Assembly: GCA_930367215.1 (NCBI GenBank)
Contig: OV884059.1
Coordinates: 30,681,882-30,745,881, forward strand
Reading direction: 5' to 3'
DNA: 64,000 nt
Source of the DNA: Pollenia angustigena
Lineage: Eukaryota; Arthropoda; Insecta; Diptera; Polleniidae
The stretch's first letter is position 1; the number at the start of each line of letters is the position of its first letter. The notes under the pieces were generated by a model, which searched no databases, was not told the DNA's origin, and worked only from the letters and a program-made list of their open reading frames with translations. Of this stretch, positions 4,956 through 64,000 are shown piece after piece. The position numbers and the translations under genes are program-made.

Positions 4956-5070
4956 CACTGAAATTTATTGTTGAAGGCCTAAGCAACCAGTGAAATGCGC
5001 ATCGAAACCAGCTTTCCTCAACAATAAATTTCAGTATAATTATTAAAAATAAAAATTGGAAATTTAGCAC
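4951..5070 (+). mobile_element. Hammerhead-repeat family, copy D (deleted)
   Basis: The left arm (ACTGAAATTTATTGTTGA) and right arm (TCAACAATAAATTTCAGT) are perfect inverted copies at about 4957-4974 and 5018-5035. Between them is GGCCTAAGCAACCAGTGAAA, the second half of a hammerhead core. The CTGATGA box and 5' stem present in copies A, B and E are missing, so this copy cannot form the ribozyme. The distal right flank (AAATTGGAAATTTAGCACGTC) matches copy E. Confidence 0.7.
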
Positions 5071-5567
5071 GTCATACAGAAATCTTATTGAACATATTTT
5101 TAGTTGTCCCCAAATGTGAGCTGAATTCATATCAGTTTTGTTTCAACAAAAGAGATATATTTTAAGTTGTGCCAGTGTTTCTGCTACAGCAGTTTACTTT
5201 GATGATGTTCCATTTTGTGTTGTCTCTTTTTAGTTGTTATAGTAGGTAAATTTATCGTGCTGTTTTATTTCGTTTTTTTTCTTTATTTATTTATGAAATT
5301 ATGAACAAATTTCATATTAAGAGGCACAACTCAAAAAACTTGTCATTTTTCGATGATCCCTGAAAGAATTACAAAAATAACTATCGTTGTAGACTCTGTA
5401 GACTCTCTGCATAAAATTATTTTTCTCAAAAAAGGATTTTTTCTTAAAAAAACGTTTTTTTATCAAAAATATGTACATTTGAGTGCTCCAAAAAAATTAT
5501 TTTGCGAATTTTGAACAACTCCGCCCACAAAATTGTTTTATATACTATAAATATACGTTCTGTAAAC
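5071..5567. other. No gene seen
   Basis: AT-rich spacer between two members of the hammerhead repeat family. It has A/T homopolymers and no supported coding or RNA feature. Confidence 0.45.
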
Positions 5568-6023
5568 TATTAGGAAAGTAAAATAACGCTTACTAGTGCC
5601 GCAACGACGCTGAAGTTTGAAAGTGCATTTACAAGGAAAAAAATACATTTTATTTAACTTTTGTTAAAAAAATTTCCATTAAATAACTCGCAATTGTATT
5701 CTTTTTATACAAAACACTTTTATGGGTAAAACTTTGAGTGTTTATAATTCTTTTAGCTTTCCTTAAATCTTCGGAAAAAGCTTTCCTGATGATCTGGCCT
5801 AAGCAACCAGTGAAATGCGTATAGAAATAAGCTTTCCCTCAACAATAAATTTAAGTGTATTTATTAAAAATAAAAATTGGGAATTTAGCACGTCATAGAG
5901 AAATCTTATTAATAATTATTTTGTATTCCCAAAAATAACTTTTATTATTTTCCCCTTGTAAAAGCAGCTTCAAACTTCAGCGTCGTTGGGGCCCAAGTAA
6001 GCGTTATTTTATTATCCTAATAT
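5568..6023 (+). mobile_element. Hammerhead-repeat family, copy E, with long outer inverted repeats
   Basis: Outer arms of about 70 bp are inverted copies: left 5568-5635 (AAAATAACGCTTACTAGTGC then AACGACGCTGAAGTTTGA) and right about 5953-6023. Inside, the right part carries the family core: hammerhead at 5773-5837, then CAACAATAAATTT, then TTGGGAATTTAGCACGTC. The outer ends differ from those of copies B and F, so the core may have been captured by a different inverted-repeat vehicle. Confidence 0.7.
5773..5837 (+). ncRNA. Putative type I hammerhead ribozyme, copy E
   Basis: The core boxes CTGATGA (5786-5792) and GAAA (5812-5815) are intact. Stem II is CTGG/CCAG around a 9-nt loop. The short stem III is ATGCGTAT, and the predicted cleavage is after the A at 5823. 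Stem I pairs TTTC (5782-5785) with GAAA (5824-5827). It continues with GC/GC (5780-5781/5831-5832), AAA/TTT and GG/CC. Compared with copy B the outer stem has changed on both strands, which supports the fold. Activity is untested. Confidence 0.72.
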
Positions 6024-12470: not shown

Positions 12471-12559
12471 TTGGAAGGAATTCATTTAACTTTTTTTAAA
12501 AAACACAATTTTAGAAAAACTTTCAAACGTTAAACTTTAAATTAAAATCTTTTAATTAG

Positions 12560-13015
12560 TATTTTGATGATTTTATTGAACCGTTTATATTTTTTAATCC
12601 AAATTTTTATTTTTAATCAGGCTTAAGTTCGTCAAATTTAGTTTTCATTAAATGTTTTTAATTAAAGAAGGAATTTAACAACATGAAATTAATTAAAATT
12701 TCTTTAAAAATTTTAAATTCTTGACTGCTCCAGGGATCGAGCTCACGAACAGGTTGATTTGACATGTTTCGATAGTAACCACACTATCTGCTCAGAAATC
12801 TTTGCCGTTAAATACTCACCAGCATTGACGATGGCTGGCAGTCAATAGTCAATACATCAATATTTAAATCAAATGGTATTTTTACGCGGTGGATCGAAAT
12901 TTGTTTTTGGGAAATTATTAATTTTAATTGATTTTTATATTTTTGTTTTCCTTTACTACAATTTTTCATACTATTTGTCAAGAATTCTTCTTGAAGTCCA
13001 AAGTACATTTTTAAT
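12560..13015 (-). mobile_element. tRNA-like SINE family S1, copy 1
   Basis: It matches 22485-22930 in the same orientation and 20140-20445 in the opposite one. On the minus strand a D-arm-like GATAGTGTGGTTACTATC (perfect 5-bp stem) is followed by a B-box-like GCTCGATCCC. The 3' part contains ATTTGACGAACTTAAGCCTG. The D-arm stem is GATCG/CGATC in the 22.6-kb copy, so both strands changed together. The tRNA-like part is internal rather than at the very 5' end of the shared region. Confidence 0.68.
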
Positions 13016-13669
13016 TTTTTTTTTTGTTTTTTGTAAAGTTTTGGTATCAAATAGTTTTTTTTCATTCATTAATAAGATTTTCCTATACTGAAATTTATTG
13101 TTGCTTATTTGTATAAAACCTTTAAGTTTTTGTTCCCTTTTATTTAAACTACAATTTATCATACGCCCCATTGGTTTTTTATTTGTACTGACACTTTTTG
13201 CGCGTTATTTTGCAAACTGCCTACCATATTTATAAAAAAAATTAAATTGCGGTTTCTACTTGTCTTTATTAATGAGAAAAATATTAATCATTTATAAATG
13301 TTAACAAAAACAAAAACACTGAAAGGAAATTAACCTTAATTGTTTAAACTTTACATGGCTTTTGCAAACACGAAAACGAAATTTGTTTTGTTTAGTACAA
13401 ATAAGACAAGACAAGACAAGGCTGATACGCCTCAGAAAGAGTTTTTCTTCAAGTTGAAGGCCATTTGTTGTGTTTAACTTTTAACTCTTTCCTAAATAAC
13501 GCGAACGTGTTTAATTCTTTTTATTTAACCTTTTAAATATAAACGAAAGAATATAACGCATTTAACACAAAACACAACAAGGCTACAATTTTAATGAGAC
13601 AAAATGTCAAGGTTTTAATAATAAAATAAACATAATTTTACTCCATAAAAAAAAATTAAATAAAAGTAC
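13016..13669. other. Intronic DNA, no gene seen
   Basis: AT-rich, with a short AAGAC simple repeat near 13400-13420. No coding or RNA feature was recognised. Confidence 0.5.
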
Positions 13670-16284: not shown

Positions 16285-17560
16285 AATTACTGCCGAGGAG
16301 CCGCCCTTAGGGGGATAAACTGTATGACCAACCTCCATTAGTTTTTGGTATTTAACATTATCTATCATTATAATTACCACTTATCACCATCCATTAGGGA
16401 GGCTTACATACAACCTTGTAGCGCCTAGAATTCCCTTAGACGGGTCAAATGTATGAAAAACACCGCTTTATTTTACATCCCCATTATTTGTGACTAACAA
16501 ATCTTCCTGCTATCCCTATTCCTTAAGGGGCTTGCATACAAAATGTTCAGTACAAACTAGAAATATATTGAAGACAAAGTCCCAAAATTCCTTAGGAGTC
16601 GCTTCTAGGGGGATAAAATGTTTGACCAACCTCCATTAGTAAACGTCCTCAACATTTTCTCAAAACATACTTGCCATGAGGCTTGAGGTGTACTCCCATA
16701 ATGGGCTAAATTTATGAAATACCTACCCGCTTTCTCCATTCCTTATGGGAGCTCCCATACAAAATTTTTAATACAAACTAGAAATATATTGAAAAAAAAG
16801 TCCCATAACTGCCAAGGAGTCGCTCTTTGCGGCATAAAATGTATGATCGACCTCCATTAATTGTTTATCCTTAACAATTTTAAAAACATACTTGCCCCTT
16901 ATCATTATTCCTTTGGAAGGCATCCATACAAATATGACAGTTTAATTAAATTATTAAATTTGGCCCCTGCAGCGCCTAGAATGCCCCTAGACGGGTCATA
17001 TGTATAAAACACCCCACTTTATTTAACATCCCCATTATTTGTGGCTAACAAATCTACCCGCTAACTCCATTCCTTAAGGGCGTTCCCATAAAAAATTTTA
17101 TATACAGGCTAGAAATAACTACCAAGCTGTTACCCCTAGGGGCATAAAATGTATGACCGACCACCACTAGTTTTTTGTCCTTAAGATTTTCTTCAAACAT
17201 ACTTGCCCCTCATCATTATTTATAAAGGGATCTTCCATAAAAATATTGCGGTTTAATTAAATTCTTAATTTTGGGCCCTTCAGCGCCTAGAGTGCCCCTA
17301 CACTGGTCAAATGTATGACCAACCCCACTTTATTTTTCATCCCCATCATTTGTTTATAAGATACTTACCCGCCATTCCATTTCTTAAGGGGCCTCCATAC
17401 AAAATTTTCAATAAAGGCTAGAAATATATTAAAGAAAAAAGTCCCATAACTGCTAAGGAGTCGCCCTTAGGGGCGTAAAATGTAAAACCGACCTCCATTG
17501 GATTTTCGCCCTAAACATTATCTCACAACATACTTCGGCTTGATCTCCGCCACTAAGGAG
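16285..17560 (+). repeat. Satellite array, ~315-bp unit, left arm of an inverted pair
   Basis: Recurring blocks are AACTGCCAAGGAGTCGC, GGGGCATAAAATGTATGACC, GACCTCCATTAGTTTT, CAGCGCCTAGAATGCCCCTA and CCGCTATCTCCATTCC. A CTAGAAATATATTGAAG phrase also recurs. About four diverged units are present. The same units occur in reverse orientation at 21440-22480. Confidence 0.83.
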
Positions 17561-20139: not shown

Positions 20140-20445
20140 AAATTTCGAACCACCAGTACAACTGGTTAAAGATTGAGTTTTGACTGTTGGCTGGCAGGCA
20201 CCGCAGTGCTGCAGAGGTTAGAACTCAAAGAATTCCGATGAAAAAATGTGGCGATTCTTGAAACATGTAAATTCAACCCAGCTTCGAGCCCCAGCTCAGC
20301 CAAGAAAATTATCAATAAAAAAAAAAAAATTTTTTAAATTTCATGTTGTAAAACAAAATTCCTTCCTTCAGTAAAAATAATTTTATGAAAATTAAATTAA
20401 ATGAACTCAAGACTAACTAAAAATATCAAAAATTAAAAAAAACAA
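20140..20445 (+). mobile_element. tRNA-like SINE family S1, copy 2
   Basis: Contains an A-box-like TGCTGCAGAGG (about 20209), the shared TTGAAACATGTAAATTC, and a B-box-like GCTTCGAGCCC (20281-20291). It then has an AAAATTATCAATAAAA run, TTTCATGTTGTAAAA and AAATGAACTCAAG. Same order as the reverse complement of 22485-22930. Confidence 0.68.
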
Positions 20446-21299: not shown

Positions 21300-22480
21300 T
21301 TGCTTATTAGGCCGACGATATTTTTTTCTACACGTATAGAAAATAAGGTTCCAAACAAAACAGGCAATAAATGATTCAAAACTGTCTACAATTTCTGATT
21401 TTATTCACAAAAGATGAGAATTTTTAATAAAATTGAAAACCTTCATAAAAAGCCATATTTGTATTGGAGGCCCCCCTAAGGAGAGGAGCTAAAGAGCAAG
21501 TATGTTTAAAGAAAATGTTAAGGATGAAAAACCATTGGATATTGAAAATTTTGTATGGGAGGCCCCTTAAGAAATGGAGTGGCTAGCTGGTAAGTATCTT
21601 ATAAACAAATGATGGGGATGAAAAATAAAGTGGGGTTGGTCATCCATTTGACCAGTGTAGGGGCACTCTAGGCGCTGAAGGCCCCAAATTCAAGAATTTA
21701 ATTGAATCGCAATATTTTTATGGAAGCTCCCCTAATAAATTATGATAAGGAGCAAGTATGTTTGAAGAAAATGTTAGGGACAAAAAACCAGTATTGGTCG
21801 GTCATACATTTTATGCCCCTAGGGGTAACAGCTTGGTAGTTACGGGACTTCTTCTTCAATATATTTCTAGCGTGTATTGAAATTTTTTTATGGGAACGCC
21901 CTTAAGGAATGGAGATAGCGGGTAGATTTGGTAGCCATAGATAATGGGGATGTAAAATAAAGTGGGGTTTTTCATACATATGACCCGTCTAGGGGCATTC
22001 TAGGTACTAAAGGGGCCAAACTTAAGATTTACATTAAATCTCCATATTTTTATGGGAGAACCCCTCAGGGGTGGTTTGATATAATGTGAAGGACAAAAAA
22101 ATAATGGAGATCAGCCATACAGTAAATCCCCCTAGAAGCGACACCTTGGAAGTTATGAGACTTTTTCTTCAATATATTTCTAGTCTGTATTCAAAATTTT
22201 GTATGGGAACCTCCATAAGGAATGAAGAAAGCGGGTAGGTATTTTAGAAACAAATGATAAAAAAAGTGAAAGTGGTTATAAAGCTCTTCAGGGGCCAAGT
22301 TTAAGATTTTCATTAAATCGCCATATGTACTTTTATGGGATTACACCTCAAGTATGTTTTAAGAAAATGTTACGGATAAAAAACTAATGGAGGTCTGTCA
22401 AACATTTTTCCCCTAAGCGCGAGTCCTTGGCAGTTATGGGACTTTTTCTGCAATATAATTCTAGCCTGGTGGTTATTTTG
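21300..22480 (-). repeat. Satellite array, right arm of the inverted pair
   Basis: 21300-21460 mirrors 17570-17860. 21440-22480 carries the ~315-bp units in reverse: TAGGGGCATTCTAGGCGCT, GGGGTAACAGCTTGG, CAATATATTTCTAGC, GGAATGGAGATAGCGGGTAG. Together with 16285-17860 it makes an inverted repeat with arms over 1.1 kb and a spacer of about 3.4 kb. Confidence 0.83.
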
Positions 22481-22484
22481 TTGA

Positions 22485-22930
22485 ACTATTTATGGTTTTT
22501 AATCCAAATTTTTAATATTTTTAATTAGGCTTAAGTTCATCAAATTTAATTTTCATTAAATTATTTTTATGAAGAAAGGAATTTTTACAACATAAAAATT
22601 AATTAAAATTGTTATTGATAATCTTTCATTTTTGACCGTGGCCGGGGCTTGAACCCTGGCCGGCAGGTTACCATGACATGTTTCGATCGCAACCACTCGA
22701 TCTCCTCAGATGGATTTGCCGTCTTACACTCGCAGCCATCGACGACTGCTGACGTTACTAGTCAAACATCAAACCTTAAACCAAATTGTATTTTAACCTT
22801 TGGTAAATCGAAATTTGCTTTTCTGAATGATTATCCATTTTAATTGATTTTACATGTTTTTTCCTTAGTTTTGTTTTCTCGTAATTTTGTCAAGAATTCT
22901 TCTTGAAGTTCAAAGTACATTTTTTCTTTT
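22485..22930 (-). mobile_element. tRNA-like SINE family S1, copy 3
   Basis: On the minus strand GATCGAGTGGTTGCGATC forms a perfect 5-bp D-arm-like stem with the GAGTGGTT loop seen in Ser/Leu tRNAs. A B box, GGTTCAAGCCCC, follows about 40 nt later. The body matches 12560-13015 in direct orientation, including CAAGAATTCTTCTTGAAGT and AAAGTACATTTTT at one end. Confidence 0.72.
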
Positions 22931-22979
22931 TTCATTTTTGTCTTTTTTGACTTGAAGGACAAATGTACACATAGAGCTT

Positions 22980-25576: not shown

Positions 25577-25790
25577 ATGACCCGAAAGTACCTTTCAGCA
25601 TTACCAACCATCGCTGCTTCTGGAGCAAACCGTAAAACGGCAAAGAATTCTGATGATGGAAATGTGGTTGTTCTTGAAACATGTAAATTCGACCCGAGTT
25701 CAATCCCGTGTTCAGTCAAGAAAAAAAATTATCGAAAAAAAAAATTTTTTTTTTATGAATTTCATGTTGTAAATTCCATCTTTTGCTAGA
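25577..25790 (+). mobile_element. tRNA-like SINE family S1, copy 4 (partial)
   Basis: Shares TTCTTGAAACATGTAAATTC, a B-box-like GAGTTCAATCCC, an A/T run and GAATTTCATGTTGTAAA with copy 2. The 3' part is cut off where the RTE-like element begins. Confidence 0.65.
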
Positions 25791-28399: not shown

Positions 28400-30385
28400 T
28401 AAAGCTGAGAAATTTTTATGAATTAGACCGTAAGAAGGAACCTGGTATTGATAAGATCAGTAATAAAATGCTTTTAGAGCTACCTCGCATAGCAAAGAAA
28501 ATTATTCTTTTTATTTTTAATGCTGCACGCAGAGAAAGAACATGTTTTAATATGGTCACCTCCAACAAAACTATTTTTAAAGAAAATTTTAAACATATTA
28601 TGGTTAATATAACCATATTATATTCACTTACAGCCATATTATGGTTAAATTAGACCTCCATCCAGAAGACACAACCATATTATGGTTGCCTCTAAACATG
28701 TTATGGTTAAATATGACAATAATTTGTTTTAAAATTAAAAATAGTATTTTCCCTGTTTCCAAGAGCAACATGCTATGGTTGAAAACCAACAATGCTATTA
28801 TAAGTGTTTAACATGTTTTACTTATTTTTGACCATAACATGTTCGGAGGCAACCATAATATGGTTGTTGCTTTTTGATGGAGGACTAATTAAACCATAAT
28901 ATGGTTGCCGGTGACAATAATATTGTTAAATTAATCATAATATGTTTAAAATTTTCTTTAAAAATAGTTTTGTTGGAGGTGACCATATTTAAACATGTTT
29001 TTCTCTGGGTGTATTTTACGCCTTGAATACTATCCTCAAAAATGGAAGGTTTCCTTAGTTACCATGATACCAAAGCCAGGTAAAGATCATACAAAAGTTG
29101 AGTCTTATAGGCCTATTAGCTTATTATCAAATATGTCAAAGCTGTTTGAGAAATTATTAGTTTCAAAATTAACACCGATTTTAAGCGAAAATAGATATGT
29201 ATTCACAACCATCAGTTCGGATTAAGAAGAAAACACAGCACAATCGGACAGACCCATCGAATAGTAAATGCCATTTGAAAAGCATTTAAAGATAAAAAAT
29301 AAATATTGCTCAGCACTCTTCATCGATGTTTCGCAAGCTTATTACATAAATTGAAGCAAAATTTACCAGCAAACATACACAAGCTGCTAAAAAGCTACTT
29401 AGCCGGTCGTGAATTTATTATTAAAGAAGGAAATTTCTTAAGTTCACTACAGCCCATTGGCGCTGGAGTCCCACAAGGCAGCATCCTGGGCCCTCTATTA
29501 TACTTAATTTATACTTCGGCCAACAAGCAACTACACCCAAACTTCAACATTTGCAGACGATACAGCTTTTTTAAGCGTCCACGAAACCCGTTATGAAGCA
29601 TCTCGTTACTTACAGCATCATATATTTCAACTAGAAATATGGTTAAAACAATGGAGGATAAAGGTCAATGACCAGAAATGCGTACATACAACATTCACCT
29701 TGCACCGGGAATCTGATTACAATCAATAATCAAATAATTCCTCAACATTCGCATGTAAAATATCTCGGTATACATCTGGATCGTCCATGAACGTGGAAAT
29801 GCCATATAGAGGCAAAATTAACCCAAATTAAACTAAAAGCCATCCAAATTCATTGGCCTATTGGAAGATATTCTGTCCTTAGTCTCGAATGCAAGCTTCT
29901 ACTTTACAACTCTATCTTAAAGCCTATCTGGTGCTACGGTATCCAACTATGGGGCACTGTCTCGGCCTCAAATATCGAAAAAATTCAAAGGCGCCAAAAT
30001 AAACTTCTTCGAATAATCACAGCCGCTGCCTGGTATGTTAAAAACTCAAACATTCATAAGGATCTCAATGTGCCATTAGTAAAAAATAGTATTAAAAAAT
30101 ATGCAGTAAAATATTTAAAAAGGCTTGAACAACACCCAAATCCACTGGCTCGAAATATTTTAAATCATGACGGCCACACTCGCTTAAGAAGAAGAGACAC
30201 TGCAGCACTTACCCATTAAGATGAGCGATAAACACCTTCATATGTGAACAGAACCCGTGATGAAGAAAATTTTTGTCTGGCACTGGCAGGACTTAAATAA
30301 AGTATTAGGATAAGATTTGATTAATTATTGTTAGTTCATATTTAATATATGAAGATTCAATAAAAAATAATGAGAAAAAAAATTG
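28400..30385 (+). pseudogene. Jockey-like LINE, 5'-truncated and interrupted
   Basis: The reading frame gives Pro-Gly-Ile-Asp-Lys-Ile-Ser-Asn-Lys before an inserted element. After it come Leu-Arg-Leu-Glu-Tyr-Tyr-Pro-Gln-Lys-Trp-Lys, Met-Ile-Pro-Lys-Pro-Gly-Lys-Asp and Tyr-Arg-Pro-Ile-Ser-Leu-Leu-Ser. Further on are Val-Pro-Gln-Gly-Ser-Ile-Leu-Gly-Pro and a broken Phe-Ala-Asp-Asp region near 29550. The C-terminal Tyr-Gly-Ile-Gln-Leu-Trp-Gly and His-Lys-Asp-Leu-Asn-Val-Pro (to about 30215) are typical of the jockey clade. Many frameshifts and stops. The 3' UTR ends in an A-rich stretch near 30360-30380. No ORF1 or endonuclease is present. Confidence 0.87.
28530..29007. mobile_element. Inverted-repeat element inserted in the jockey-like LINE
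   Basis: The left arm CAGAGAAAGAACATGTTTTA and right arm (inverted) CAGAGAAAAACATGTTTAAA begin about 90 bp of inverted repeat. This includes ATGGTCACCTCCAACAAAAC and TATTTTTAAAGAAAATTTTA, identical in both arms. AACCATATTATGGTT-type palindromes fill the interior. LINE coding resumes directly on both sides. Flanking 8-mers agree at only 4 positions. Possibly hAT-like. Confidence 0.8.
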
Positions 30386-30412
30386 ATGAGCTTAAGCCTG
30401 ATTGAAATATCA
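30330..30412 (+). repeat. Segment resembling the S1 SINE 3' end, at the LINE 3' terminus
   Basis: ATTGATGAGCTTAAGCCTGA and GAAATATCAAAAACTTG align with the 3' part of the S1 repeats (GATGAACTTAAGCCTAATTA, AAATATTAAAAATTT). The match follows the A-rich end of the jockey-like element directly. It is either a truncated SINE copy or a shared LINE/SINE tail. Confidence 0.5.
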
Positions 30413-30429
30413 AAAACTTGAATAAATGA

Positions 30430-30725
30430 ATGTATGATGAGATAAACTCACTGTTTATTGTTGATGTTTTTCTTTAAACTTTAATATTGTTACAAGTAGA
30501 ACTGTTGCTTATAATTCTTATACGTTTAACAGTTTTATTTGGTTTAATATATTTAGTTTTTCTAAAATATTTATGGATGAAGTTTCCTGATGATCTGGCC
30601 TAAGCAACCAGTGAAATGCGCATAGGAATCGCTTATCCCATCAACAATAAATTTCGAGTGTTTTTATCAAGAATAAAAACTGGGAGTTAAGCACGAATAA
30701 CAAAATCTTTTAAAATTATATTACA
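30430..30725 (+). mobile_element. Hammerhead-repeat family, copy A
   Basis: The left arm GATAAACTCACTGTTTATTG and right arm CAACAATAAATTTCGAGTGT are inverted. Between them is AACAGTTTTATTTGGTTTAA, then the hammerhead at 30575-30638. The right flank is ACTGGGAGTTAAGCACGAAT and AACAAAATCTTTT. Very similar to copy B over almost 300 bp. No coding. Confidence 0.82.
30575..30638 (+). ncRNA. Putative type I hammerhead ribozyme, copy A
   Basis: Core CTGATGA at 30587-30593 and GAAA at 30613-30616. Stem II is CTGG/CCAG with loop CCTAAGCAA, and stem III is ATGCGCAT. Predicted cleavage is after A 30624. Stem I pairs GGATGA and TTTC of 30575-30586 with GGAA and TTATCC of 30625-30638. It differs from copy B by one base, in the internal loop. 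Confidence 0.78.
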
Positions 30726-41189: not shown

Positions 41190-41540
41190 GCAGACTTAAT
41201 TATCAAAGTAATTTTTGTTAATACAAAATTTTAATTTAAAAGATTTTGTTATTCCTGCTTAATTCCCAATTTTTATTCTTGATAAAAACACTGAATTTTA
41301 TTGTTGATGTTTTTGTTTTAACTTTGATATTGTTACAAGAAGAACTGTTGCTTATGATTCTTATTCGCTTAACAGTTTTATTTGGTTTAATATCTTTAGT
41401 TTTTCTAAAATCTTTATGGATGAAGTTTCCTGACGATCTAGCCTAAGCAACCAGTGAAATGCGCATAGCAACAGCTTATCCCATCAACAATAAATTTCAG
41501 TGTTTTTATCAAGAATAAAAATTGGGAATTAGGCAGACTT
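41190..41540 (+). mobile_element. Hammerhead-repeat family, copy C, with complete inverted arms
   Basis: The left arm CCTGCTTAATTCCCAATTTT (from 41253), running to TTATTGTTGATG, is repeated in inverted form from CATCAACAATAAATTTCAGT to GGGAATTAGGCAG (to about 41533). About 55 bp pair almost perfectly. The hammerhead lies against the right arm. Farther left, ATTATCAAAGTAATTTTTG and AATACAAAATTTTAAT match the outer ends of copies B and F. Best example of the family architecture. Confidence 0.85.
41418..41481 (+). ncRNA. Putative hammerhead ribozyme, copy C (degenerate)
   Basis: The core boxes CTGACGA (41430-41436; the family's T is C, allowed by CUGANGA) and GAAA (41456-41459) are kept. Stem II has an A·C mismatch (CTAG/CCAG). 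Stem I has lost one pair (GCAA instead of GGAA). Probably weak or inactive. Confidence 0.6.
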
Positions 41541-41589
41541 AATTTTTATATTTTTAAAATGGATCACGCTCTAAAAAGAAAATAAAAAT

Positions 41590-42630
41590 AATATAATTTT
41601 TTATAAAAAGTAAATTTTAGCAAAATTTTCTATAAATAGTAAATTTTAGCAAAATTTCCTATAAAAAGTAAATTTTAGCAAAATTTCCTAAATAAAGTAA
41701 ATTTTTAGCAAAATTTTCTATAAAAGTAACTTTTAGCAAAATTTCCTATAAAAAGTAAATTTAACAAAATTTCCTATAAAAAGTTAGTTTTTGCAAATTA
41801 TCATTTAAATAGTAAATTTTAACTAAATATCCTATCAAAAGTAAATTTAAGCAAAATTTCCTATAAAAAGTAAATTATAACAAAACTTCCTATAAAAAGT
41901 AAATTTTAGTAAAATTTCCTATAAAAAGTAAATTTAACAAAATTTCCTATAAAAAGTTAGTTTTTGCAAATTATCATTTAAATAGTAAATTTTAACTAAA
42001 TATCCTATCAAAAGTAAATTTAAGCAAAATTTCCTATAAAAAGTAAATTATAACAAAACTTCCTATAAAAAGTAAATTTTAGCGAAATTTCCTACAAAAA
42101 GTAAATTTCAGCAAAAGTTCCTCTAAATAGTAAATTTAAGCAATATTTGCTATAAAAAGTTAATTTTTACATAATTTCCTATAAAAAGTTAATTTTTGTA
42201 TAGTTTCCTGTAGATAGAAAATTTTAGCAAAATTTCCTACAAAAAGTCAATTCCGGCAAAATTTCCTACATAAAGTAAATTTCAGGACAATTTCGTGAAT
42301 TTTAACATAAGTTACTATAAAAAGTTAATTTTTGCAAAATTTCCTATTATAAGTTATTTTCAGCAATATATCCTATAAAAAGTTATTTTCAGCAATATTT
42401 CTTCTAAATAGTAAATTTTAATAATATTTCCTCTAAATGGAAAATTTTAACAAAATATCCTATAAATAGTTAATTTTAGCAAAATTTCCCATAAAAAGTA
42501 AATTTTAGCAACATATCCTATAGAAAGTAAATTTTAGCAATATTTTCTATAAAAAGTAAATTTTCCTTTAAAAAGTAAATTTAAACAATATTTCCTATAA
42601 AACGTTAATTTTACAAAATTTCCTTTATCT
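41590..42630 (+). repeat. ~29-bp minisatellite with a 173-bp internal duplication
   Basis: About 35 diverged copies of TATAAAAAGTAAATTTTAGC then AAAATTTCC. A block of six units starting near 41757 is repeated with near identity from about 41930 (offset 173 bp). This includes the odd unit TTTTGCAAATTATCATTTAA. Non-coding; the units lack the separation of unique spacers needed for a CRISPR. Confidence 0.9.
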
Positions 42631-44869
42631 TTAGTTAGCCAGGCAGGTGTTTTTTTTTTTACCAAAGATGAGAAAATCCTTGGGACCTTCCGAAGGCTGG
42701 CCATGCAGTGAAAATTTTTCTTAAACAATAGTTTAGTTATCCGTGACCAAATGGACAGTTACTTTTATCCTACGTGTATACCAGCTGCATTAATAATACA
42801 AAATACTTGGAATGTTGCAGTATTAAGATTGACAATTTTCTCATGTCTCTACTTTTTGCAACACCCGAAATTTCACTTCTGATAAAATGTAGGGTACTCA
42901 CCTCATTTTTGCAGCTGCTAATGCAACATTTTTGGGGTGCTGCCGGCAGCTCTTTTGGTCATTCTATTTTATATTTAATTTTATGCAGTCATGTGTTATT
43001 TATGGCCTTTAGTTTCATTGTTTTTATTTTCATCTTCTTTCGTTTTATTCACCAATAAAAAAAATACTTTTAAATGTTCCGACAGTATTTTGGAAATCCT
43101 CATGCAAACGCAATGAATTTTAACACAAGCCTTGTTTTTTATTTAATTCTTATTTTTGGTCAGTCAATTTAATGGCTTTTTGTTGGATAAAAAACCCCTT
43201 ACGAAAACCCCATACACATTTCCGATTTCATAAATGTACTGTGAAAGTGAGTGACTGTGTGTGCTGCCCTGCGTGTAACTGTAAGTGCACATCCTTTCAA
43301 ACATATGCAAATTAAAACCGGAAACCAACATATGAATGCAAATTTTTGTTAAATCTAGACATGAATGTTTTTAAATAAATTTCATTTTTTGTTTGTTTAT
43401 ACATGTGTTTGTATTGTCTCTAGATTTTGAGAACATTAAGATAAAGGATTCTCTATGAATGTTTATGGCCAAGTGTGTATTATAGAAAACAAGGATATCC
43501 TTTTTAAATTTATGCTTCCTTTTGTAAATTGAAATAATTTTTTATTTCTGCTTTTTAGGAATAAATTAATAAACAAATGAGCATCCATTATTTCTAACAT
43601 AAACTCAAATGTCTTATGTTTAAGCATCTTCATACTTTTGCAATTAATTTGTAATCCTTGACACACACACACACACAGTCATCTAACAAAATACTCTGTT
43701 ATGGTTGAGCCACATTATTTGTCTAAGGTCTTAGTAACTTCTCAAAATACACGATTAACATTAAATTCTAAGCCATTTCATCTCTCATCAAATTAAGCCA
43801 TTATTATTTGTTTTTATTGTCTTAATCTGGAAAATATTTACTTCCTGTTTTTCTTCCTTATTTTTTGTTTAAACAAAAGTTCATATTACAATCCTTTTTT
43901 GTTAAGGATTTGTATTACAGTATGCCATACATACGTTTGTATGACTAAAATTATGCTTTATTTTACCTCCCTTTTCCCTCTTTTTTGAAACGGTTGGTAT
44001 TTACTAAGCTGATTTGCTTGTTATGAGCGACACGCTCCTTTAGTCGTTATGAACGAGTGCCAAGTCCATTTATACATATTTTCTTTATTTGTGCTATTTT
44101 CTGTGGCTACCATGGTTTGCCAAAATTTTAATATCCCAGTATAGGTACATTTATTTACCAGTATTACACCACGCTCTTCTTTCTTTCTCCCACTCCCCCT
44201 CTCTCTCACTTTCCCATCGTTTTCTGTTTAACGAACACCCTCTTTTTCATCAAGTTAGCGCTGCTGGTTGATTTAAAGCTCATTGACCTTTAAGCCCGTT
44301 GTACCGTTACCATAGTGTGCTTGCTACTACTGCATTCTTTTCCTTTAGGTTTTATGACATTTATTCTCTTAAGCTTTATGGCCAAGTGTCACTTTGATGT
44401 TTATTTTAATGTTGAGTTCAGTCACAAGCTGCCAGAAAAAATAATTCGAGCATATTTTTATAGTCATCCGGATTACTTGCTTTCGTTTGTTGGGTAGTTT
44501 GATGGAGAGTAAAAGAAGCTTAAGCTGCTTTGCCATCATTATGTTGCTTTTTTGCCGAAACATGAATGTGGCATGTTAAAACAAGCAGTTTGAGGGTTCT
44601 GTTAGTTGTAGCAACTAAAAATAATAATCGTTATAGTTTTAAGTATTGAAGGTACTTGTGTGCTGTAGTTATTTTTTCTCTTCTTTGCTTTGGTTACATT
44701 TTAATTGTGAACAATTTTGGAAACTTTAAAAATAACCACCACCATCGGTATTTGAGTTTGAAGGGAAAAATATAATTTTACGTAAATAGTTGCATAGAAA
44801 AAAAATCTTAAAATAACCTTAAACAAAATAAAATTTATTATTTAACGAAAGGGATGACTATGTCGTTAT
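42631..44869. other. No gene seen
   Basis: Unremarkable AT-rich DNA with an AC repeat (43660-43676). A minus-strand GTGAGT near 42898 has no supporting coding frame. No terminal repeats were recognised. Confidence 0.4.
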
Positions 44870-45735: not shown

Positions 45736-45744
45736 GGAAGTGTT

Positions 45745-46195
45745 TTCTTAGGCCGTGCACTTGCCTGTTTATTATCAAAAAGTAATTTCAATTTTTGGGA
45801 ATACAACATCTTTTGTAAGTTGTTGTTGTTTTTATTTTGTTTTTCTTAACCTACTTACAACTACAATTAATGTTGAGAGAATTTCAACTAATTGTAGTGG
45901 GGAATGTAAGATGAGATAAACCCACTGTTAATTGTTGATGTGTTTTGTTTAAACTTTGATATTATTAAAAGTAGAACTGTTGCTATAAGACTTATACGTT
46001 TAACAGTTTTATTTGGTTTAATATCTTTAGTTTTTCTAAAATCTTTATGGATGAAGTTTCCTGATGATCTGGCCTAAGCAACCAGTGAAATGCGCATAGG
46101 AATAGCTTATCCCATCAACAATAAATTTCAAGTGTTTTTATCAAGAATAAAAACTGGGAATTAAGCACGAATAACAAAATCTTTTGAAATTAAAA
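45745..46195 (+). mobile_element. Hammerhead-repeat family, copy B
   Basis: The left end is CCGTGCACTTGCCTGTTTAT and TTTTTGGGAATACAACATC, also found at the right end of copy F. It continues through ACAACTACAATTAATGTTGA, GATAAACCCACTGTTAATTG and the hammerhead at 46049-46112 to GGGAATTAAGCACGAATAAC. Near-identical to copy A over the right 300 bp. No coding frame. Confidence 0.82.
46049..46112 (+). ncRNA. Putative type I hammerhead ribozyme, copy B
   Basis: CTGATGA at 46061-46067 and GAAA at 46087-46090. Stem II is CTGG (46069-46072) with CCAG (46082-46085). Stem III is the self-complementary ATGCGCAT, as short as in the known schistosome satellite hammerheads. Predicted cleavage follows A 46098. 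Stem I has inner TTTC/GGAA pairs and outer GGATGA/TTATCC pairs around an internal loop, a site for the loop contacts typical of natural hammerheads. Best-preserved copy together with A. Confidence 0.78.
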
Positions 46196-46199
46196 GTTT

Positions 46200-51424: not shown

Positions 51425-52645
51425 AAAGTTAAGTCCTGCTCAATTCCCAATTTTTCAAACCAAAACTGCAGAGTGAATGAGAATTGCTAACGGTCAAAAA
51501 GTCTTCTTTGCAACGATATCAAAGCTTAAACAAAATACCAACAATAAACAGTGTGTTTATCTTTTCTAACATTCTCCACTACAATTGGTTGGAATTCTCC
51601 CAACATTAATTGTAATGGGTGATTTTTTAAGAGCTATAGGAAAGTTAAAAAAAAACACAAAAAATTCAGAAAAATTCATGAAATCTTTATTTGAATCGAT
51701 AGTACGGTCCATATAATTTAATATTTGAAGATTATTTCATGCAAATGTTGACCGTTACTGCGCCTCAAATTGTCCAAATGCTTAGTCCAATTTTGACATA
51801 CTCTTTCCAACATTTGAACAACAATTGAAGCAGGCATGTGTGTATAGAGATGAGCTTTAACAAATCACCACAAGAAGTAGTCTAAAGGCGTTAAATCGCA
51901 CGATCTAGGCGGCCAATTGACCGGTTTTGAACGTGAAATAAAATGTTCACCGAACTCGCCTCTCAATAAGTACATTGTTAAGCGTGCTGTGTGGCATGTG
52001 GCACCGTCTTGTTGAAACCACATGTCATGCAAGTCAAGCTCTTGCATTTTGGGTCAAAAAAAAATTGGATATCATCTCACGTTACGATTCGCATCATCTT
52101 TGAAGAAGTACGGTCCAATGACGCCACCAGCCCATAAACCGCACCAAACTGTGACTATTTCTGGATGCATTGGTAGCTCTTGCAATGCTTCTGGCTGATC
52201 TTCACTCCAAAATCGAAAATTCTGCTCATTAGCGTACCCATTAAGCTTCGTCGCTGAAGACAAGAAGCACGCGATGAACTTTCTTAACAGAGCACGCATT
52301 TTGATAATAAAATTCAATAAGCGTTGTTCGTTTGTAAGACGATTCATGGTGAAATTGTAGACCAAACTGAAAATGTTTGACGGTGAAACAAAACACGAAA
52401 CGTTCGTCAGCTGTTTAAACCAGTGTTGCCAAAAAGATAATAACTAAAACAATCACCCGATGGTTGTAAGTGGCTTAATAAAAAACAAAATTAAACCAAA
52501 AACAAATTGCGTTATTGTGTTCGCAAGAAAATCAAAATAAAGCAACTTGCCAGTTCAGTTTTTTTTATGCCGTGCACTTGCAAATAGGTTATCAAAGTAA
52601 TTTTTGGGAATACAAAATTTTAATAAATAAGATATTTTGACATGT
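51425..52645 (-). mobile_element. Hammerhead-repeat family, copy F, split by a mariner
   Basis: On the plus strand the left end is CTGCTCAATTCCCAATTTTT. Then come CAACAATAAACAGTGTGTTT and CCACTACAATTGGTTGGAAT, all in reverse orientation relative to copies A and B. The mariner follows. Beyond it TTGTAAGTGGCTTAATAAAA continues the family sequence, ending TGCCGTGCACTTGC and TTTTTGGGAATACAAAATTT. The hammerhead block is missing here. Confidence 0.75.
51615..52460 (-). pseudogene. Mariner-like element with internal deletions
   Basis: Ends GGGTGATTTTTT (left) and, inverted, CGGGTGATTG (right), at a TA site. Minus-strand coding begins Met-Asn-Arg-Leu-Thr-Asn-Glu-Gln-Arg-Leu. It then jumps to Glu-Asp-Gln-Pro-Glu-Ala and Trp-Cys-Gly-Leu-Trp-Ala-Gly-Gly-Val-Ile-Gly-Pro-Tyr-Phe-Phe. 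The catalytic part has Phe-Gln-Gln-Asp-Gly-Ala-Thr-Cys-His and Asn-Trp-Pro-Pro-Arg-Ser-Cys-Asp-Leu-Thr-Pro-Leu-Asp-Tyr. By my count 41 residues separate the last two catalytic Asp, as in the DD41D (rosa-like) group. Helix-turn-helix coding is largely deleted, so it is inactive. Confidence 0.88.
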
Positions 52646-57860: not shown

Positions 57861-60779
57861 AAAGAAGAAAGGGGGTTAGTACGGAGATACCTGTACTCGG
57901 TCAGTACGCTTTGTGTTTTTATTTGTTGGTAAATGCACAAAGATGGCTGCATTTAATTTTTTTATTTTCTTTTTCTCTTTGATTCGCTGTTAATAAAATT
58001 GTTGTTGTTTTAAACCGAAAAAATTCGAAACCGATTGCTGCGTGTGATTATATTGGCATCTTGACAAGGGAATTGAAAAGAAGTTGAGCATCACATCTAC
58101 AATGCAGCCGTGTTGATTATTATAATGTTTTTGTCCCAAAGTGCACCAGAAAAGTACTCGATGCGTACTTAATAAGAATGCTGTGCATCGTTAAACTTGA
58201 TGATATATTTTTGACTTGTGCTGCAAAGTATTATGATGTCTTGGAATTCAGCCATACCAAAAATTTGTTTTTTGATTTTAAAATTATGTTTTATTTGTTT
58301 GTAATCTGCCGCTTAATTTGGAAAGCAAATATTAAAAATAAAAATGCAATTTTATAAAACTTCGTTTTCTTTATAGTTTTGTTTGCTTGGTTGCATTAAT
58401 GTTGTAGGTAAGTGAGTGTATTATTCAAAATAGTGGCTTGTAATGTACAGATGATATTGCAACACATCAACTTTTGCATATTTCATGATTACATGTGGTG
58501 TAAATGGCTAAAACGTCATGTACTTTTATGTACACAATCACTTGTCTTCTTTCGCTATACATTTGTCTGGATTTAATTTTTATGTTTTTTTTTCTCTTTG
58601 TCTGCTTTATTTTCTTTTTCTATACGATGTATTACATGTGTTTTGCTTTTCAATCGTTCACTAAGGCCGGCTACAAATGACACATCATTGCGGCTCCACA
58701 CACTCAAACACTCTGCCAGCCAGCCAGCCAGCGAGTCAGTCCAATATGTTGTTTGAATTTCAATAAAAATGAGGGTGGTAGTTTGGGCGCATACTGAATT
58801 AGCCTACTTTGCGGCTGTGGTTATTACAACTTTATGTAGAGGGCATAGCAAGCACTCTATCTAAATATTTATGAAATTATAAGTAGTTGTGCAGTTGAGA
58901 AATGTTTTGTGTAACTGCTAGCATTTGTTATAAACTACTTATTTATGGAGGAAATGTAAAACTATTACGACATTTAAATACATACGTTTTGTTTTAGGTA
59001 AAACGAGTTTTCCCTTAATCAAATCAAGTTAAACAAAATTTAAAGACACATTAAGCAAATATTTAGCATTATAGAATAAGAATTGTGCTAAGGAATAATA
59101 ATTGCTTTCTTTATAAATTATTTTTCCTTGCATTAAGGCTTCATAAAACTTAATTAGTTCTTTAAGGAAAATTTTTTATTATTACTTCGAATATTTGCCA
59201 AATGTGCTTTATGCAATCTAGTGTACTAAATGCGTAGCGAGGCAAAAGTGCGTTTAGTTGTTGTGGTAGTTTGACAACAGCCATTATGAAACAAATGTGT
59301 TTTTTTTTTTTTTTCTTTCTTTTATAGCAAAAACATTTTCGAGTGTAATGCGAAACGACAAGAGGGCGTTTAAAAAGTTGTTTAAACTTGTCAGGGTTAT
59401 AAAAAGTGCTTAAAAATGCATGTTACAAGAAAAGGAAAACATATTGCAAATAACTATAATGAAAGACATATTTACAAATGTATTCATGCAACATATTACT
59501 ACAAGTTACATATTGTGGTAAGTTTAACAACACTTGAGGGGGAACTGAAACAAATTCCACAAAAATCTAATAAATTTGTAACAAATCACTAAGATGTGAA
59601 ACAATTTTTTAATTTCCCTCCAATGAATTTGCATAAAATAAGCGTTAGTTTCGACTTCAAAATTTATAGCTGCACAAAATTAAAATATAAAAACGCACAT
59701 TAAAGAAATTTATAACCATTTTAAGAGATTCTTTCTTTTCTCCCGCTACTCACACCCACCAAATAGAAAACCGAAAAAACCAATCACGCACCAACAATGA
59801 CTTTAAGCACCCAAATAGAAGAAGAAAAAACGAAAACTGTCAATAGCAATGAGCTCAAGGATACCAACAACAACAAAAAAATATCGACAGAAAACAAAAT
59901 GAAAAACTGAATGAATTTAAACAATGCCATCCATGAATCACTAACAAAAGGCAAAATAAAAACAAAATTGAAAATGTTTCAACACTTGAAAAATCAACTA
60001 ACAATTTTGTATTTGTATTTGTATAATTTAACAATGGCATTTTTCGGTTTTCTTCAACATTTTATTTATACCATACCATTTTAAACATGACAATAGATAG
60101 CAACAACTAACAGTCAACAAAACTTTGGCACATTGTTAACCAGACCAACAACAGAGAGCAGCAAATGGTTTGAGAGAAAGAGAAACAAACTTTGTCGTAT
60201 TGGCAGGCAAATAATAGCAAAAATTATTTTATCACGTTGCTATAAAGGCCTGGAAATTGTTACCAAATAGTTGTTGTTGTTTGAGAAAATTAATTTATAA
60301 TGAAAAAGAAAAAAAACGCTAAGAGAGACAGAAACTTTTTGTGCAAATTTAAGCGAACATTTTTATCTCTAACCATCCATAAAACTGTCTATTTAACGCC
60401 GTTTATTGTCAACAGTTTTACAATACTTGAGACTTGTGCTTGGGTCAGCATTTCTTTTATCGATAGTGCAGTCAATTGCTATTTTTATTAAACTCTGTGT
60501 GCCGTTTAAGATTTTAATTGAAATAAATACGAAGTAAGAATTATTCCAAATAACCGAATACTCTTGTTAATAGAATTACACAAAAACAAACGAGAAAAAA
60601 TAATTATATAATATCTGTTAAAAAGGACGATTAGATTAAGAATTATCGACATATTTTAGATCATTATGTAGAATTAAGTACTTTAAAACACGTACTTTTT
60701 TCGTCTTAAGTGAAAGGACGAACCTCCAATCTATATGTTATGTTCCCCATAAGTCCGTGAACATTTAATTTAATTTTGT
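57861..60779. other. No gene seen
   Basis: AT-rich DNA. TAAGGCCGGCTACAAATGAC at 58670 looks like the left end of a TAA-type MITE, but its inverted partner was not found. A CCAG repeat lies at 58719-58735. No exon-like segments. Confidence 0.4.
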
Positions 60780-62240
60780 AAGTTCAATAATATAAAAAAA
60801 TCAGAAAGTACCAAATAAAAAACCAATAAGTACCAAATAGACTGGTCTTATAATTCATCAATAACTCTGGACTCTGCATAATGAATGTTATATTTCTAGG
60901 TTTTATATTAATAAAAATTCAAAAAGTACCAGTTAAAAAAATGATTCTCGTTCACTCAGTACCAGTTGAAAAACAAAAAAGTACCAAAAAGTTCCCTTGT
61001 ATAGATTCTCATCCACTCAGGCAATGTCCTGTTTTATTTTATATTTCTACGCTTATATCGGGTGTTTTTTTTACAGGTTTGTTTTTCGAATAGAGATAAA
61101 ACTGGCATTTTGTGGTCAAATCTGGCAACTCTAATGTCATTTATGTTCAGTTTGGTTTGCCATTTCATCATGAACAGGTTGACAAAAGAACAACGCTTGA
61201 AAATCGTGCAAATTTATTTCGAAAATAACGGTTCAGTTCGCGAAGTTTACTGATTTTCATCGCAAAATTTTGTTCAGTGATGAGGCTCATTTTTGGTTGA
61301 ATGGCTTCGTCAACAAGCAAAATCGCCGCATTTGGAGTGAAGAGAATCCACATGAGACCCTTGAGACGCCATTACATCCACAAAAACTGACTGTTTGGTG
61401 TGCTCTTTGGGCTGGTGGAGTCATTGGGCCATACTTCTTCCGAAATAATGCTGGAGAGGCAGTTACCGTTAATGGAGACCGGTATAGAGCCATGATAACC
61501 GACTATTTTGTTCCCGAATTGGATGGCATAAATGTGGATGAGTTGTGGTTCCAACAAGACGGCGCTACATGCCACATCATATTTAAACATTAATGGCATA
61601 AAATTATCCTTCCAATAAAGCCAAATTGATGGTCATTAAAACGATTTTCTTGTGTTTTATTTCAATTCGAAGTTCTATACCACAGAAAAAAACACCCGAT
61701 ATTAACAAAATTTAAGAAAAGTACCAGTCTTAGATCAAAAAAGTACCAAAACACTTTTCCTTACAGATTCTTATTCATCTTATGTTGCTAGGTCCAATAT
61801 TAAGGAAAATTCAAATCAAAAAGTACCTGTTAAAGAACAAAAAAGTACCAAAAAGTACCCTTTTATAGATTCTCATCCAGTTAGAACATTGCACGTTTAA
61901 TTTTTTATTTCTAGGTTTAATATTAACAGAAAATCTTTAAAAATTACCAGTTTTAGATTAATAAAGTCCAGTTAGGACATTGCACGTTTAATTTTTTATT
62001 TCTTGGTTTAATATTAACAAAAAAACTTTAAAAATTACCAGTTTTAGATTAATAAAGTACCAAAACACTTCCCCTTTTTCACCCAGGACCATTCATGTTT
62101 AATTTTATGTTGCTAGGTCCAATATTAACGAAAATTCAAGTCGAAAAGTACAAGTTAAAGTACAAAAAAGTACCATCTTGTTTCATCTAAAGGCTCTCAT
62201 TCACTCAGGACTCTGCCCATATTTATATTTCTAAGTTCAA
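60780..62240 (+). repeat. Second array of the ~118-bp AAGTACCA unit
   Basis: Units match those at 6440-7729 (AAGTACCAGTT, AAAAAAGTACCAAAAAGTTC, AGATTCTCATCCACTCAGG, GGTCCAATATTAA). A 62-bp segment with TTAAAAATTACCAGTTTTAG is repeated near 61930 and 62030. Interrupted by the mariner at 61058-61699. Same orientation as the left array. Confidence 0.85.
61058..61699 (+). pseudogene. Mariner-like element, deleted, with TA target duplication
   Basis: TCGGGTGTTTTTTTTA and the inverted TCGGGTGTTTTTTTCT are flanked by TA (61056-61057, 61700-61701). Coding starts at 61170 with Met-Asn-Arg-Leu-Thr-Lys-Glu-Gln-Arg-Leu, is interrupted, and resumes Phe-Ser-Asp-Glu-Ala-His-Phe-Trp-Leu-Asn-Gly. It continues Trp-Cys-Ala-Leu-Trp-Ala-Gly-Gly-Val-Ile-Gly to Phe-Gln-Gln-Asp-Gly-Ala-Thr-Cys-His. 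The C-terminal catalytic Asp region is deleted. At 642 bp, about half of an intact mariner, it is inactive but mobilisable in principle. Confidence 0.9.
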
Positions 62241-62379
62241 AATTATAGAATATTCAAAGAAATTTAATTTGCCGTATCTCCCCTTTTTGATATATTTTTT
62301 TTTCTCCTTATCGAAGTAACAAAAATGTTAATATTTCAGTGGTAGCCAATAATTAAATACGTTTGTATATGTCAACGAA

Positions 62380-64000
62380 TGTAGAAAAATATTTTCTAAA
62401 AATGTACCAAAACAAGGTAAGAATTTGGTACTTTTCAAATAAGTACCAAAATTGTATTTTTATTTTTTAGATGAGTTAAGAATGTAAAAAAATGTATTTC
62501 TATGTAAAATGTTTTAAAAAAATAGATGAAGCGACAGGAAAGTTCAAGAAATACATGTTTTATTGGTTTACTTCCCAAAAGGCCAGAATTTTAAAAAAAG
62601 TACGAAACACCTGCACGTTTTGTTTTTTAAAGAACAACGATAAGCTTAAATATGTTTAACTTTTTTAGTTTAGGAAGTCTAGCGAATTAACACGTTTCCC
62701 CCCTGTTTTCCTTATTTGAATAAAAAGTACCAAAACGATGTACGAAACGAAGAATAGTACCATATTTATATTTGTATTTTTTAAATAAGTTACGAATGCG
62801 ATAACACTTTTTACTCGTTTATTGAAGGCAAAGATATAAGCTATAACTACAATTAACAATAGTTAATAATATAAGGATTATAATATACAGTGGTTCTTAT
62901 TAGGGCTCTCTAGTATTGTTACCATAATAATATTTGTTTTTTCAAAGAATTAGTTGTTATATGTTAAAGATTAACAAATTAAACGTACATAATTTACTTT
63001 TTGCAATGAAAAATGGTGAAAAAACATTGCTTATTTAATTATGAGGGTGTTTTGTCAAGGGTTAAAAAAAAGGAAACGAAGAATAGTACCATATTTATAT
63101 TTGTATTTTTTAGATAAGTTGCGAATGCAATTACATTTTTGTTATTAAGTTTATTGGTTTAAAAGACAGATGGAGTGACAAAAATAATCCAAAATACAGG
63201 TTTTACCCGTTTACTCCAAAAAGGCCCGAATTTCAAAAAAGTGCCAGAAACCTATCTGTTAATGTTTTTTAGAATAACGACAAGTATTACATTTTTGTTG
63301 TCTCTTTTACTTAAGAAGAAATGAGGTTAGCGAATTTACACGCTTTTACACTTTTTTTTGTAAATAAAAGTTGGATTTCGAAAAAGTACCAAATTATATT
63401 TGCATTTTTTTTGGTAAGTCCCAATTCACACGTTGCAAGTCTTATTGATCAGCTTGCTACTTTATAACGAGAGTGACGAGAGGAAAAGAAACGTTTCTCT
63501 CTCACTCTCTTTCGCCTATAAGGTAGCAAGCTTATCAATAAGCCTTGCAACGTGTGAATTGGCACTAAGTGACGAATGTGATAAAATTTTAATTTCTATG
63601 TTTATTGGTTTAAAAGATAGATGGAATGACAAAAAAACTCCAAAATAAAGGGCCGGAGTTTAAAAAAAGTACCAGACACCTGCTTGTCTATTTTTTTACA
63701 GAACAACGATAAGTATTAAATGGTTTTCATATCTTTTAATTAATCCCCTTTTATGTTAAAAAAAAGTACCAAACGAGGAACGATTATAACCACTTAAACG
63801 TTTGAATTTCGAAAAAGTACCAAATTTATATTTGTATTTTTTAGATAAGTTACGAATGTGAAAGATGGAGTGACAAAGAGTTCTAAAATACAGGTTTTAC
63901 CCGTTTTCTCCAAAAAGGACCGAATTTAAAAACAAGTACCAGAAATCTGCTTTTTTAAAGAACAACGTAAAATAATAAATGTTGCTTGTATCTCTTTAGT
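62380..64000 (+). repeat. Tandem array, ~300-bp unit with AAAAAGTACC motifs
   Basis: ATATTTGTATTTTTTAGATA then AGTTACGAATG recurs at about 62447, 62769, 63094, 63400 and 63823. Units also share CAGGTTTTACCCGTTTACTC, AAAGTACCAGAAACCTGC and AGAACAACGATAAGTATTAA. It follows the 118-bp array and runs off the window. A MITE is inserted at 63418. Confidence 0.75.
63418..63565. mobile_element. MITE with TAA duplication, family H1, copy 2
   Basis: TAA at 63415-63417 and 63566-63568. Inverted ends GTCCCAATTCACACGTTGCA and, inverted, GTGCCAATTCACACGTTGCA extend about 50 bp (CTTATTGAT, GCTTGCTAC). The interior CTTTCGCCTATAAGGTAGCA is related to 34652-34948. Neighbouring array units show the empty site (TAAGTTACGAATG). 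Confidence 0.85.

Follow-up and report, generated by a model that had tools for sequence, protein, structure and literature searches.

Among the described systems closest to the repeats analysed here are the metazoan retrozymes, which consist of tandem hammerhead repeats, with long duplications, and are made into circles (PMC7229834). In the sections of that paper drawn on here insects are mentioned, and its Discussion states the enzyme that spreads animal retrozymes as an open matter, with Penelope-like elements as a strong candidate. For PAc (Anolis), reverse transcription starts 111–118 nt into the ORF and the hammerhead cuts 26 nt into it (PMC11167929), which by our own subtraction from these figures places the start 85–92 nt past the hammerhead cut. 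Both strands are cut and extended, an optional tail of 30–40 nt lies between two start sites, and the PAc hammerhead needs protein, with hammerhead mutants still inserting in vitro (PMC11167929). The Penelope elements of Adineta vaga, as described in the excerpts of PMC3846280 used here, are often found head-to-head, with 8–10-bp duplications and an optional tail on one arm.

The present locus is a stretch of 64,000 nt from the fly Pollenia angustigena (contig OV884059.1, positions 30,681,882 to 30,745,881, henceforth referred to as the window), which we have examined together with related copies from the rest of the genome.

Hammerhead copies in the window

A sequence-only reading of the window had claimed four copies of a repeat (family 1), at 5773, 30575, 41418 and 46049, all on the plus strand and all with the complete layout of a type I hammerhead. 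Each of them is present at its position on that strand (Table 1), and the layout fits at 46049, 30575 and 5773, but the copy at 41418 has decayed. In copy D (46049) stem I comes in two parts (GGAU/AUCC and UUUC/GGAA, with one U.G) and stem III is the palindrome AUGCGCAU (46090–46097). The 4-bp stem II that had been claimed is there as CUGG/CCAG, with a 9-nt loop and then GAAA, but its base (10.1–11.1) is a U.U in all four copies. The palindromic stem III could hardly form a hairpin alone and would make an 8-bp helix between two copies, while loop II (UAAGC) is complementary to the internal loop of stem I (GCUUA), with which pairing is possible.

Table 1. Coordinates of family-1 and family-2 features in the window
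Feature	Position	Strand	Details
Family-1 hammerhead copy D (the main finding)	46049..46112	+	core CUGAUGA 46061–46067; predicted cleavage after A46098
Two-armed family-1 insertion around copy D	45738..46199	+	minus arm (unit 165–94), then plus arm (unit 171–469, 1–101); no target-site duplication found, flank match of just 4 nt
Family-1 hammerhead copy B	30575..30638	+	intact layout; predicted cleavage after A30624; inside 5'-truncated family-1 piece 30428–30718
Family-1 hammerhead copy C	41418..41481	+	decayed: mismatches U.C (stem I) and A.C (stem II)
Two-armed family-1 insertion around copy C	41210..41535	+	12-nt flank match GCAGACTTAATT, taken as target-site duplication
Family-1 hammerhead copy A, diverged	5773..5837	+	outer stem I GGAA/UUCC, not GGAU/AUCC; G.U in stem III; predicted cleavage after 5823
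Truncated family-1 piece (fifth copy)	4976..5092	+	without CUGANGA core
Family-1 remnant without ribozyme region	51508..52624	-	split by mariner-like insert
Family-2 piece	22469..22978	-	intact hammerhead, core CUGAGGA 22709–22703; predicted cleavage after C22675 (GUC); then tRNA-like B box
Family-2 piece, diverged	12553..13031	-	mutated core CUGAGCA; compensatory changes in stems I and II compared with 22709
Family-2b (older subfamily) hammerhead	25636..25783	+	CUGAUGA core at 25650; GAAUU/AAUUC in stem I; stem II preceded by an additional U
Family-2b piece	20225..20434	+	degenerate core CCGAUGA

Several other repeats lie beside these copies. Copy A stands between inverted arms (5548–5642 and 5948–6042) that are 83% complementary and without family-1 sequence; they may be a MITE, or a two-armed element of greater age. 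A 28-copy array in 29-bp steps (41523–42679) follows immediately downstream of copy C, and a family-2 3' tail (30356–30434) sits immediately upstream of the 5'-truncated copy B, a possible further fusion. The insert that splits the minus-strand remnant is mariner/Tc1-like, of ~830 bp (51625–52459, minus), and apparently entered at a TA site. Elsewhere in the window, repeated units form two opposite blocks (16711–17517 and 21584–22258) that are up to 93% complementary over 257 nt, and a GTACCA-rich repeat family with a 69-nt unit, present 15 times, occupies two clusters (6433–7724 and 60750–63871).

The hammerhead motif and chance expectation

It had also been claimed that all the parts would rarely align by chance. 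For the bare motif (CTGANGA..GAAA..TA) this did not hold, as the window contains 10 matches against 5.5 expected, and at least 10 were obtained in 15 of 100 shuffles. When stems I, II and III were required the claim was borne out, with 5 matches against 0.0067 expected (300 shuffles) or 0.010 per window (3000 local shuffles within 1-kb blocks), and with no match of the same descriptor on the reversed window. The five matches are three family-1 copies plus the family-2 hammerheads at 22709 (minus) and 25650 (plus); the copy at 41418 fails through its mismatches. Given that the descriptor was written after family 1 had been seen, and permits U.U at the base of stem II, the fair test is family 2, which the descriptor also found.

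A search with the Rfam hammerhead models had been proposed as a check, and it gave no match to family 1. With release 15 there was none in the window at the gathering score, none in the whole window at E≤10, and none at E≤10 in 161-nt pieces around copies 46049 and 5773. Even the better-formed family-2 copy at 22709 scores just 15.3 bits against RF00163 (gathering score 34), and for this reason we regard the model as insensitive to the present hammerhead type; since it misses this type, a missing covariance-model match is not decisive as a refutation. In minimum-energy folds of single family-1 and family-2 copies the hammerhead was not the fold obtained. As to the mismatch, U.U at the stem II base occurs in natural hammerheads, where it is the most active of the mispaired combinations, and ~40% of hammerheads are predicted to use pseudoknots of the loop II/stem I type (PMC3088659, in the parts used here). 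Neither family had a match in a viral contig collection when exact and gapped patterns were used, and one exact family-1 pattern had none in a general collection of genome contigs.

Family 1 across the genome

A 208-nt family-1 query gave at least 35 matches in the 1.37-Gb Pollenia genome. Of 65 near-full-length copies, 49 keep the strict ribozyme layout intact (window plus non-redundant fetched loci, with 11 shorter matches dropped and many of the counted copies sharing arrays), and at least one intact ribozyme occurs in 23 of the 30 sources. These counts give good support to the sequence-only reading, a type I hammerhead whose stem III is very short, carried by a dispersed repeat of flies. 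The base of stem II is U.U in 47 of the 49 intact copies and U.C and U.G in the other two, while stem III is AUGCAU in 30 and AUGCGCAU in 17, both palindromes. That the palindrome is kept despite a 2-nt change in length, and that a second family covaries (see below), further favours the short-stem-III hammerhead. At the level of sequence the hammerhead reading is sound and the ribozyme motif is real.

Few parts of the unit vary less than the ribozyme stretch, where minor letters make up 1.3% compared with 3.2% in the rest (rank 10 among 469 windows), in a comparison that omits matches below 85% identity and whose copies were recruited through the ribozyme stretch. "A1", an alignment of 40 chosen rows, has 95.5% of cells paired and almost no variation; just one pair changed on both sides, a result matched by 216 of 500 shuffles, and with variation so scant covariation in family 1 speaks neither for the hammerhead nor against it.

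Family-1 ribozymes recur head to tail, one per 468–476 nt and up to five in a row, with two irregular spacings (207 and 790) in one locus, L041. Unbroken full units follow one another with nothing between them, four in L039 and three in L041. Among 17 full units compared, those within L040, L041 and L044 differ at 0–4 sites and those within L039 at 12–16, while units from separate insertions differ at 3–37 sites; a single site distinguishes one arm of L040 from the other, and L040 differs from the separate insertion L048 at just 3–4. Repeated copying of one template unit, as from a circle, would explain the near-identical units within arrays, although the transcript of an already uniform array could be an alternative source. 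The longest stop-free stretch in one circularised unit is 62 codons. The carrier of the family-1 ribozyme can be identified as a tandem, retrozyme-like element.

Anatomy of family-1 insertions

When pieces less than 60 nt apart are joined, family 1 forms 46 clusters, 22 of them head-to-head, none tail-to-tail and 24 in a single orientation, i.e. with one arm only. One locus (L032) reads plus then minus at a looser joining distance and falls into separate clusters at 60 nt. Flank matches of at least 9 nt (9–15 nt) were found in 11 of the 20 head-to-head insertions with both flanks, compared with 5.8% for swapped flanks, and the observed mean was reached in 0 of 20000 permutations; two of these 11 matches are A/T runs (L044, L047), and the remaining nine insertions have no 9-nt match. 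The rule-based figure of 11/20 stands beside 11/14 in a hand-picked sample of 14 insertions. Target-site duplications longer than 4 bp, a feature of metazoan non-LTR retrozymes, are thus present in family 1.

The outer ends of the insertions concentrate 87–116 and 131–136 nt past the cleavage site (about 95 and 133). In 11 of the 22 head-to-head clusters both outer ends lie inside these two zones, and 10 of these 11 pair one short with one long end; in the other 11 at least one outer end lies outside both zones. The centre junctions, where the arms meet, vary. Paired ends together with variable centres would be the expected trace of two cDNAs begun at both ends of one staggered cut. An interpretation of the inverted arms as MITE ends was dropped in view of the two end classes and the variable centres.

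Penelope-like elements of the same genome

At least 19 GIY-YIG (PF01541) matches were recovered from the genome, 150 of 493 candidates having been scored. All 10 plus-strand loci inspected carry Penelope-like GIY-YIG motifs, most of them also reverse-transcriptase motifs, and an open stretch in L058 scores 39.3 bits for RVT_1 and 22.8 for GIY-YIG, barely above the cut-off of 22.6. Among the best 120 of 1505 protein relatives of this stretch, the species named belong to Haematobia, Calliphora, Eurosta, Rhagoletis, Episyrphus, Stomoxys and Musca, all of which we take to be flies, and this supports the description of the repeat as one of flies. Upstream of L058 lies a reversed element piece followed by a direct pLTR copy, so this Penelope element was also inserted head-to-head.

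A minimal hammerhead is found downstream of the GIY-YIG end in 15 of the 19 loci; these hammerheads were first spotted by eye, after which a purpose-built pattern was used to gather them. The stem descriptor finds none of them in the Penelope loci, just family-1 and family-2 copies, because they have an extra base (A or U) before stem II. Between subfamilies (L058, L094, L050 and others) stem II is compensated, as GUGAA/UUCAC or GUCAA/UUGAC, and stems I and II form in the minimum-energy fold of one Penelope hammerhead (z -2.2). Measured from their own hammerhead cut, 12 of 15 Penelope ends fall at 73–101 nt and three at 120–131 nt, where several values are bounds imposed by the copy used for comparison and where L053 and L054 are near-duplicates.

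At two of these 15 ends (L059 and L051) the Penelope sequence continues into a family-1 piece lacking its 5' part, truncated at unit positions 252 and 357 respectively, with the junction within about 10 nt. Both junctions could be chance insertions beside a Penelope end, given how dense family 1 is: pieces occur in 3 of the 19 GIY-YIG loci (61.7 kb), and the window has 7 clusters. At the DNA level the family-1 unit shows no resemblance to the pLTRs of the sampled Penelope copies, its matches being to separate family-1 pieces only, so that we infer its recognition by a Penelope enzyme rather than read it from a shared sequence.

A second hammerhead family

Family 2 has a unit of ~563 nt (spacings of 562 and 564 nt in two arrays), with a longest stop-free stretch of 81 codons in one circularised unit. 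At 22709 the base pair 10.1–11.1 of stem II is G-C, and a putative loop II/stem I pairing would join GGUU with AACC or GACC. The query 22600–22760 returned 1635 first-look candidates, with at least 40 near-full-length matches at 97–100% and two partial ones (40 candidates scored), and the family-2b query (25636–25783) returned 1782, of which 40 were scored, all at 82% or more. Apparently, family 2 is far more abundant than family 1.

An alignment of 27 rows, which includes all 20 fetched older copies, has 92.4% of its cells paired, against 18.5–56.5% in slid controls. Both sides changed in 7 of 16 pairs (three in stem I, four in stem II), a number that 19 of 500 shuffles reach, while the 27 cells with two-sided changes and the covariation score of 0.304 are each reached by 0 of 500 shuffles. 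This covariation represents few events, as the changes mainly separate three subfamilies. Core and GAAA are intact in just 10 of the 20 older copies.

Of 21 family-2 clusters, five are head-to-head and none tail-to-tail. Flank matches of 10–16 nt were found in 3 of 4 testable insertions, one of them low-complexity (L043), and their mean was reached in 834 of 20000 permutations, which makes this duplication test a weak one. The outer ends, at about 167, 178–186 and 217 nt, are less tight and fit the Penelope spacing more poorly, and two of them (L047, L051) adjoin A-runs, as expected for LINE-copied elements.

Family 2 also combines its hammerhead with a tRNA-like B box (22469–22978, minus, and the unit of L043). 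This B-box-like stretch lies 3' of the cleavage site. Runs of at least four T occur only twice on the sense strand of one unit, and these two features suggest transcription by RNA polymerase III. Loop II of the ribozyme presumably resembles the AGTGGTT of the tRNA D-loop/A box; a tRNA scan of family 2 called no tRNA, and for that reason we treat the tRNA-like head as mere resemblance. Classification of family 2 as a SINE was considered and dropped given the tandem spacing of 562–564 nt.

A proposed origin of the insertions

What sequence establishes is the motif, the tandem units and their near-identity in three of the four arrays compared, as well as the two arms, the duplications, the paired ends, Penelope elements of equal geometry and two fused junctions. 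Our best reading, to which we give a probability of roughly three in four, is that these are non-LTR retrozymes, which are cut by their hammerheads and which Penelope-like enzymes copy at both ends of the target. An array would be transcribed, and the hammerheads would cut the RNA to unit lengths, in family 1 probably as dimers held by the self-complementary stem III (AUGCGCAU or AUGCAU), as the preserved palindrome suggests. The cut units would then be closed into circles. To judge from the insertion ends, a Penelope-like reverse transcriptase/GIY-YIG endonuclease would make a staggered cut and prime at both of its ends, reverse transcription starting about 95 or 133 nt past the cleavage site. 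Repeated passage round the circle would produce the tandem arms, and the anatomy of the insertions points to two cDNAs joined head-to-head. Family 2, with its unit of about 563 nt, would work alike.

A broader view, which we hold to be slightly better than an even bet, is that fly retrozymes are parasites of Penelope-like elements, circular RNAs processed by their hammerheads and copied round and round by the Penelope enzyme from both ends of its staggered cut. If this is true, every insertion consists of two tandem arms in inverted orientation, and the two Penelope/retrozyme fusions, located at Penelope start sites, are fossils of one enzyme switching template between RNAs. The insertion scars of family 1 match the scars that Penelope-like elements have left in this genome, and the two fusions link both. 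Family-1 insertions would be a genomic read-out of two-end priming by Penelope-like elements, and the question of the retrozyme helper would become directly testable in a fly.

Alternative explanations

Family 1 might instead be the pseudo-LTR of an unsampled Penelope-like element, its arrays being the 5'-truncated or solo remains. Penelope pLTRs also have hammerheads, tails and head-to-head copies (PMC3846280, in the portions drawn on), and the surroundings of family 1 were sampled as stretches of 3.3 to 9.9 kb. However, the abutting full units (four in L039, three in L041) leave nothing between them, the unit has no match to the sampled pLTRs, and its stop-free stretches reach 62 codons at most once it is circularised; we consider such an origin unlikely. 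A LINE could also have mobilised the retrozymes, in which case the inverted arms would stem from twin priming. The window does contain a LINE-like reverse transcriptase (25832–26611, RVT_1), and the A-runs beside two family-2 ends (L047, L051) agree with this mode of copying. Twin priming, though, is expected to give insertions with one constant or poly(A) 3' end and, opposite it, an internal end that varies, whereas in 11 of 22 head-to-head family-1 clusters both outer ends lie within the two narrow zones, 10 with one of each, and no A-run was seen at the family-1 ends inspected. We regard a LINE as quite improbable.

Slightly less probable again is that these are foldback or MITE DNA transposons which a transposase mobilised, the hammerhead being carried along. 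The inverted arms and target-site duplications, and copy A within its 95-nt inverted arms, have the look of such elements; yet the outer ends usually lie at two different unit positions, centre junctions and the lengths of flank matches vary, and arms can hold complete tandem units that are in phase with the cleavage site. The least credible proposal is that the hammerhead layout is a chance resemblance or a functionless relic. The missing Rfam match, the U.U at the stem II base and the lack of family-1 covariation would fit it, but it has to contend with a descriptor rate of about 0.01 per 64 kb, with a hammerhead common to both families and the Penelope elements, and with a ribozyme stretch among the least variable parts of the unit (in copies recruited through it), while U.U is a natural and the best-tolerated mismatch (PMC3088659, in the parts used).

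Comparison with known systems

As retrozymes copied by Penelope-like enzymes, our preferred reading, both families can be set beside the metazoan non-LTR retrozymes, with which, going by the sections of PMC7229834 drawn on here, they share a type I hammerhead, gene-free tandem units of a few hundred nt, low GC and target-site duplications of more than 4 bp. Among the axolotl retrozymes of the same source, loop III is palindromic in one motif, and in another the stem II base is a U.U. Unit lengths of about 470 nt in family 1 and 563 nt in family 2 stand against repeats of 150–450 bp there, and the families differ further in their two-armed head-to-head insertions with paired end sites, and in being known from DNA alone. 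The words 'inverted' and 'head-to-head' are absent from the main text of that paper, in which by these terms we found no two-armed retrozyme insertions described, and no description of them stood out in literature titles and abstract openings, mostly of open-access literature. The repeat hammerhead of Aedes aegypti, likened here by description only, is another dipteran repeat with a palindromic loop III and a proposed dimer (PMC3088659, in the parts used here).

Unlike Penelope-like elements, the units of families 1 and 2 have no reverse transcriptase/GIY-YIG ORF. Lunse et al. 2017 reportedly described small hammerhead variants of Penelope-like elements in which stem III is very short and which cleave as dimers. 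In contrast to those variants, the families here keep the loop II/stem I pairing and a stem II of 4–5 bp. Family 1 is nevertheless like Penelope-like elements, as far as the portions of the sources used describe them, in its hammerhead, its tandem and head-to-head copies, its optional tail and its end sites downstream of the hammerhead, and the likeness in head-to-head copies, tail and end sites is less tight in family 2 than in family 1.
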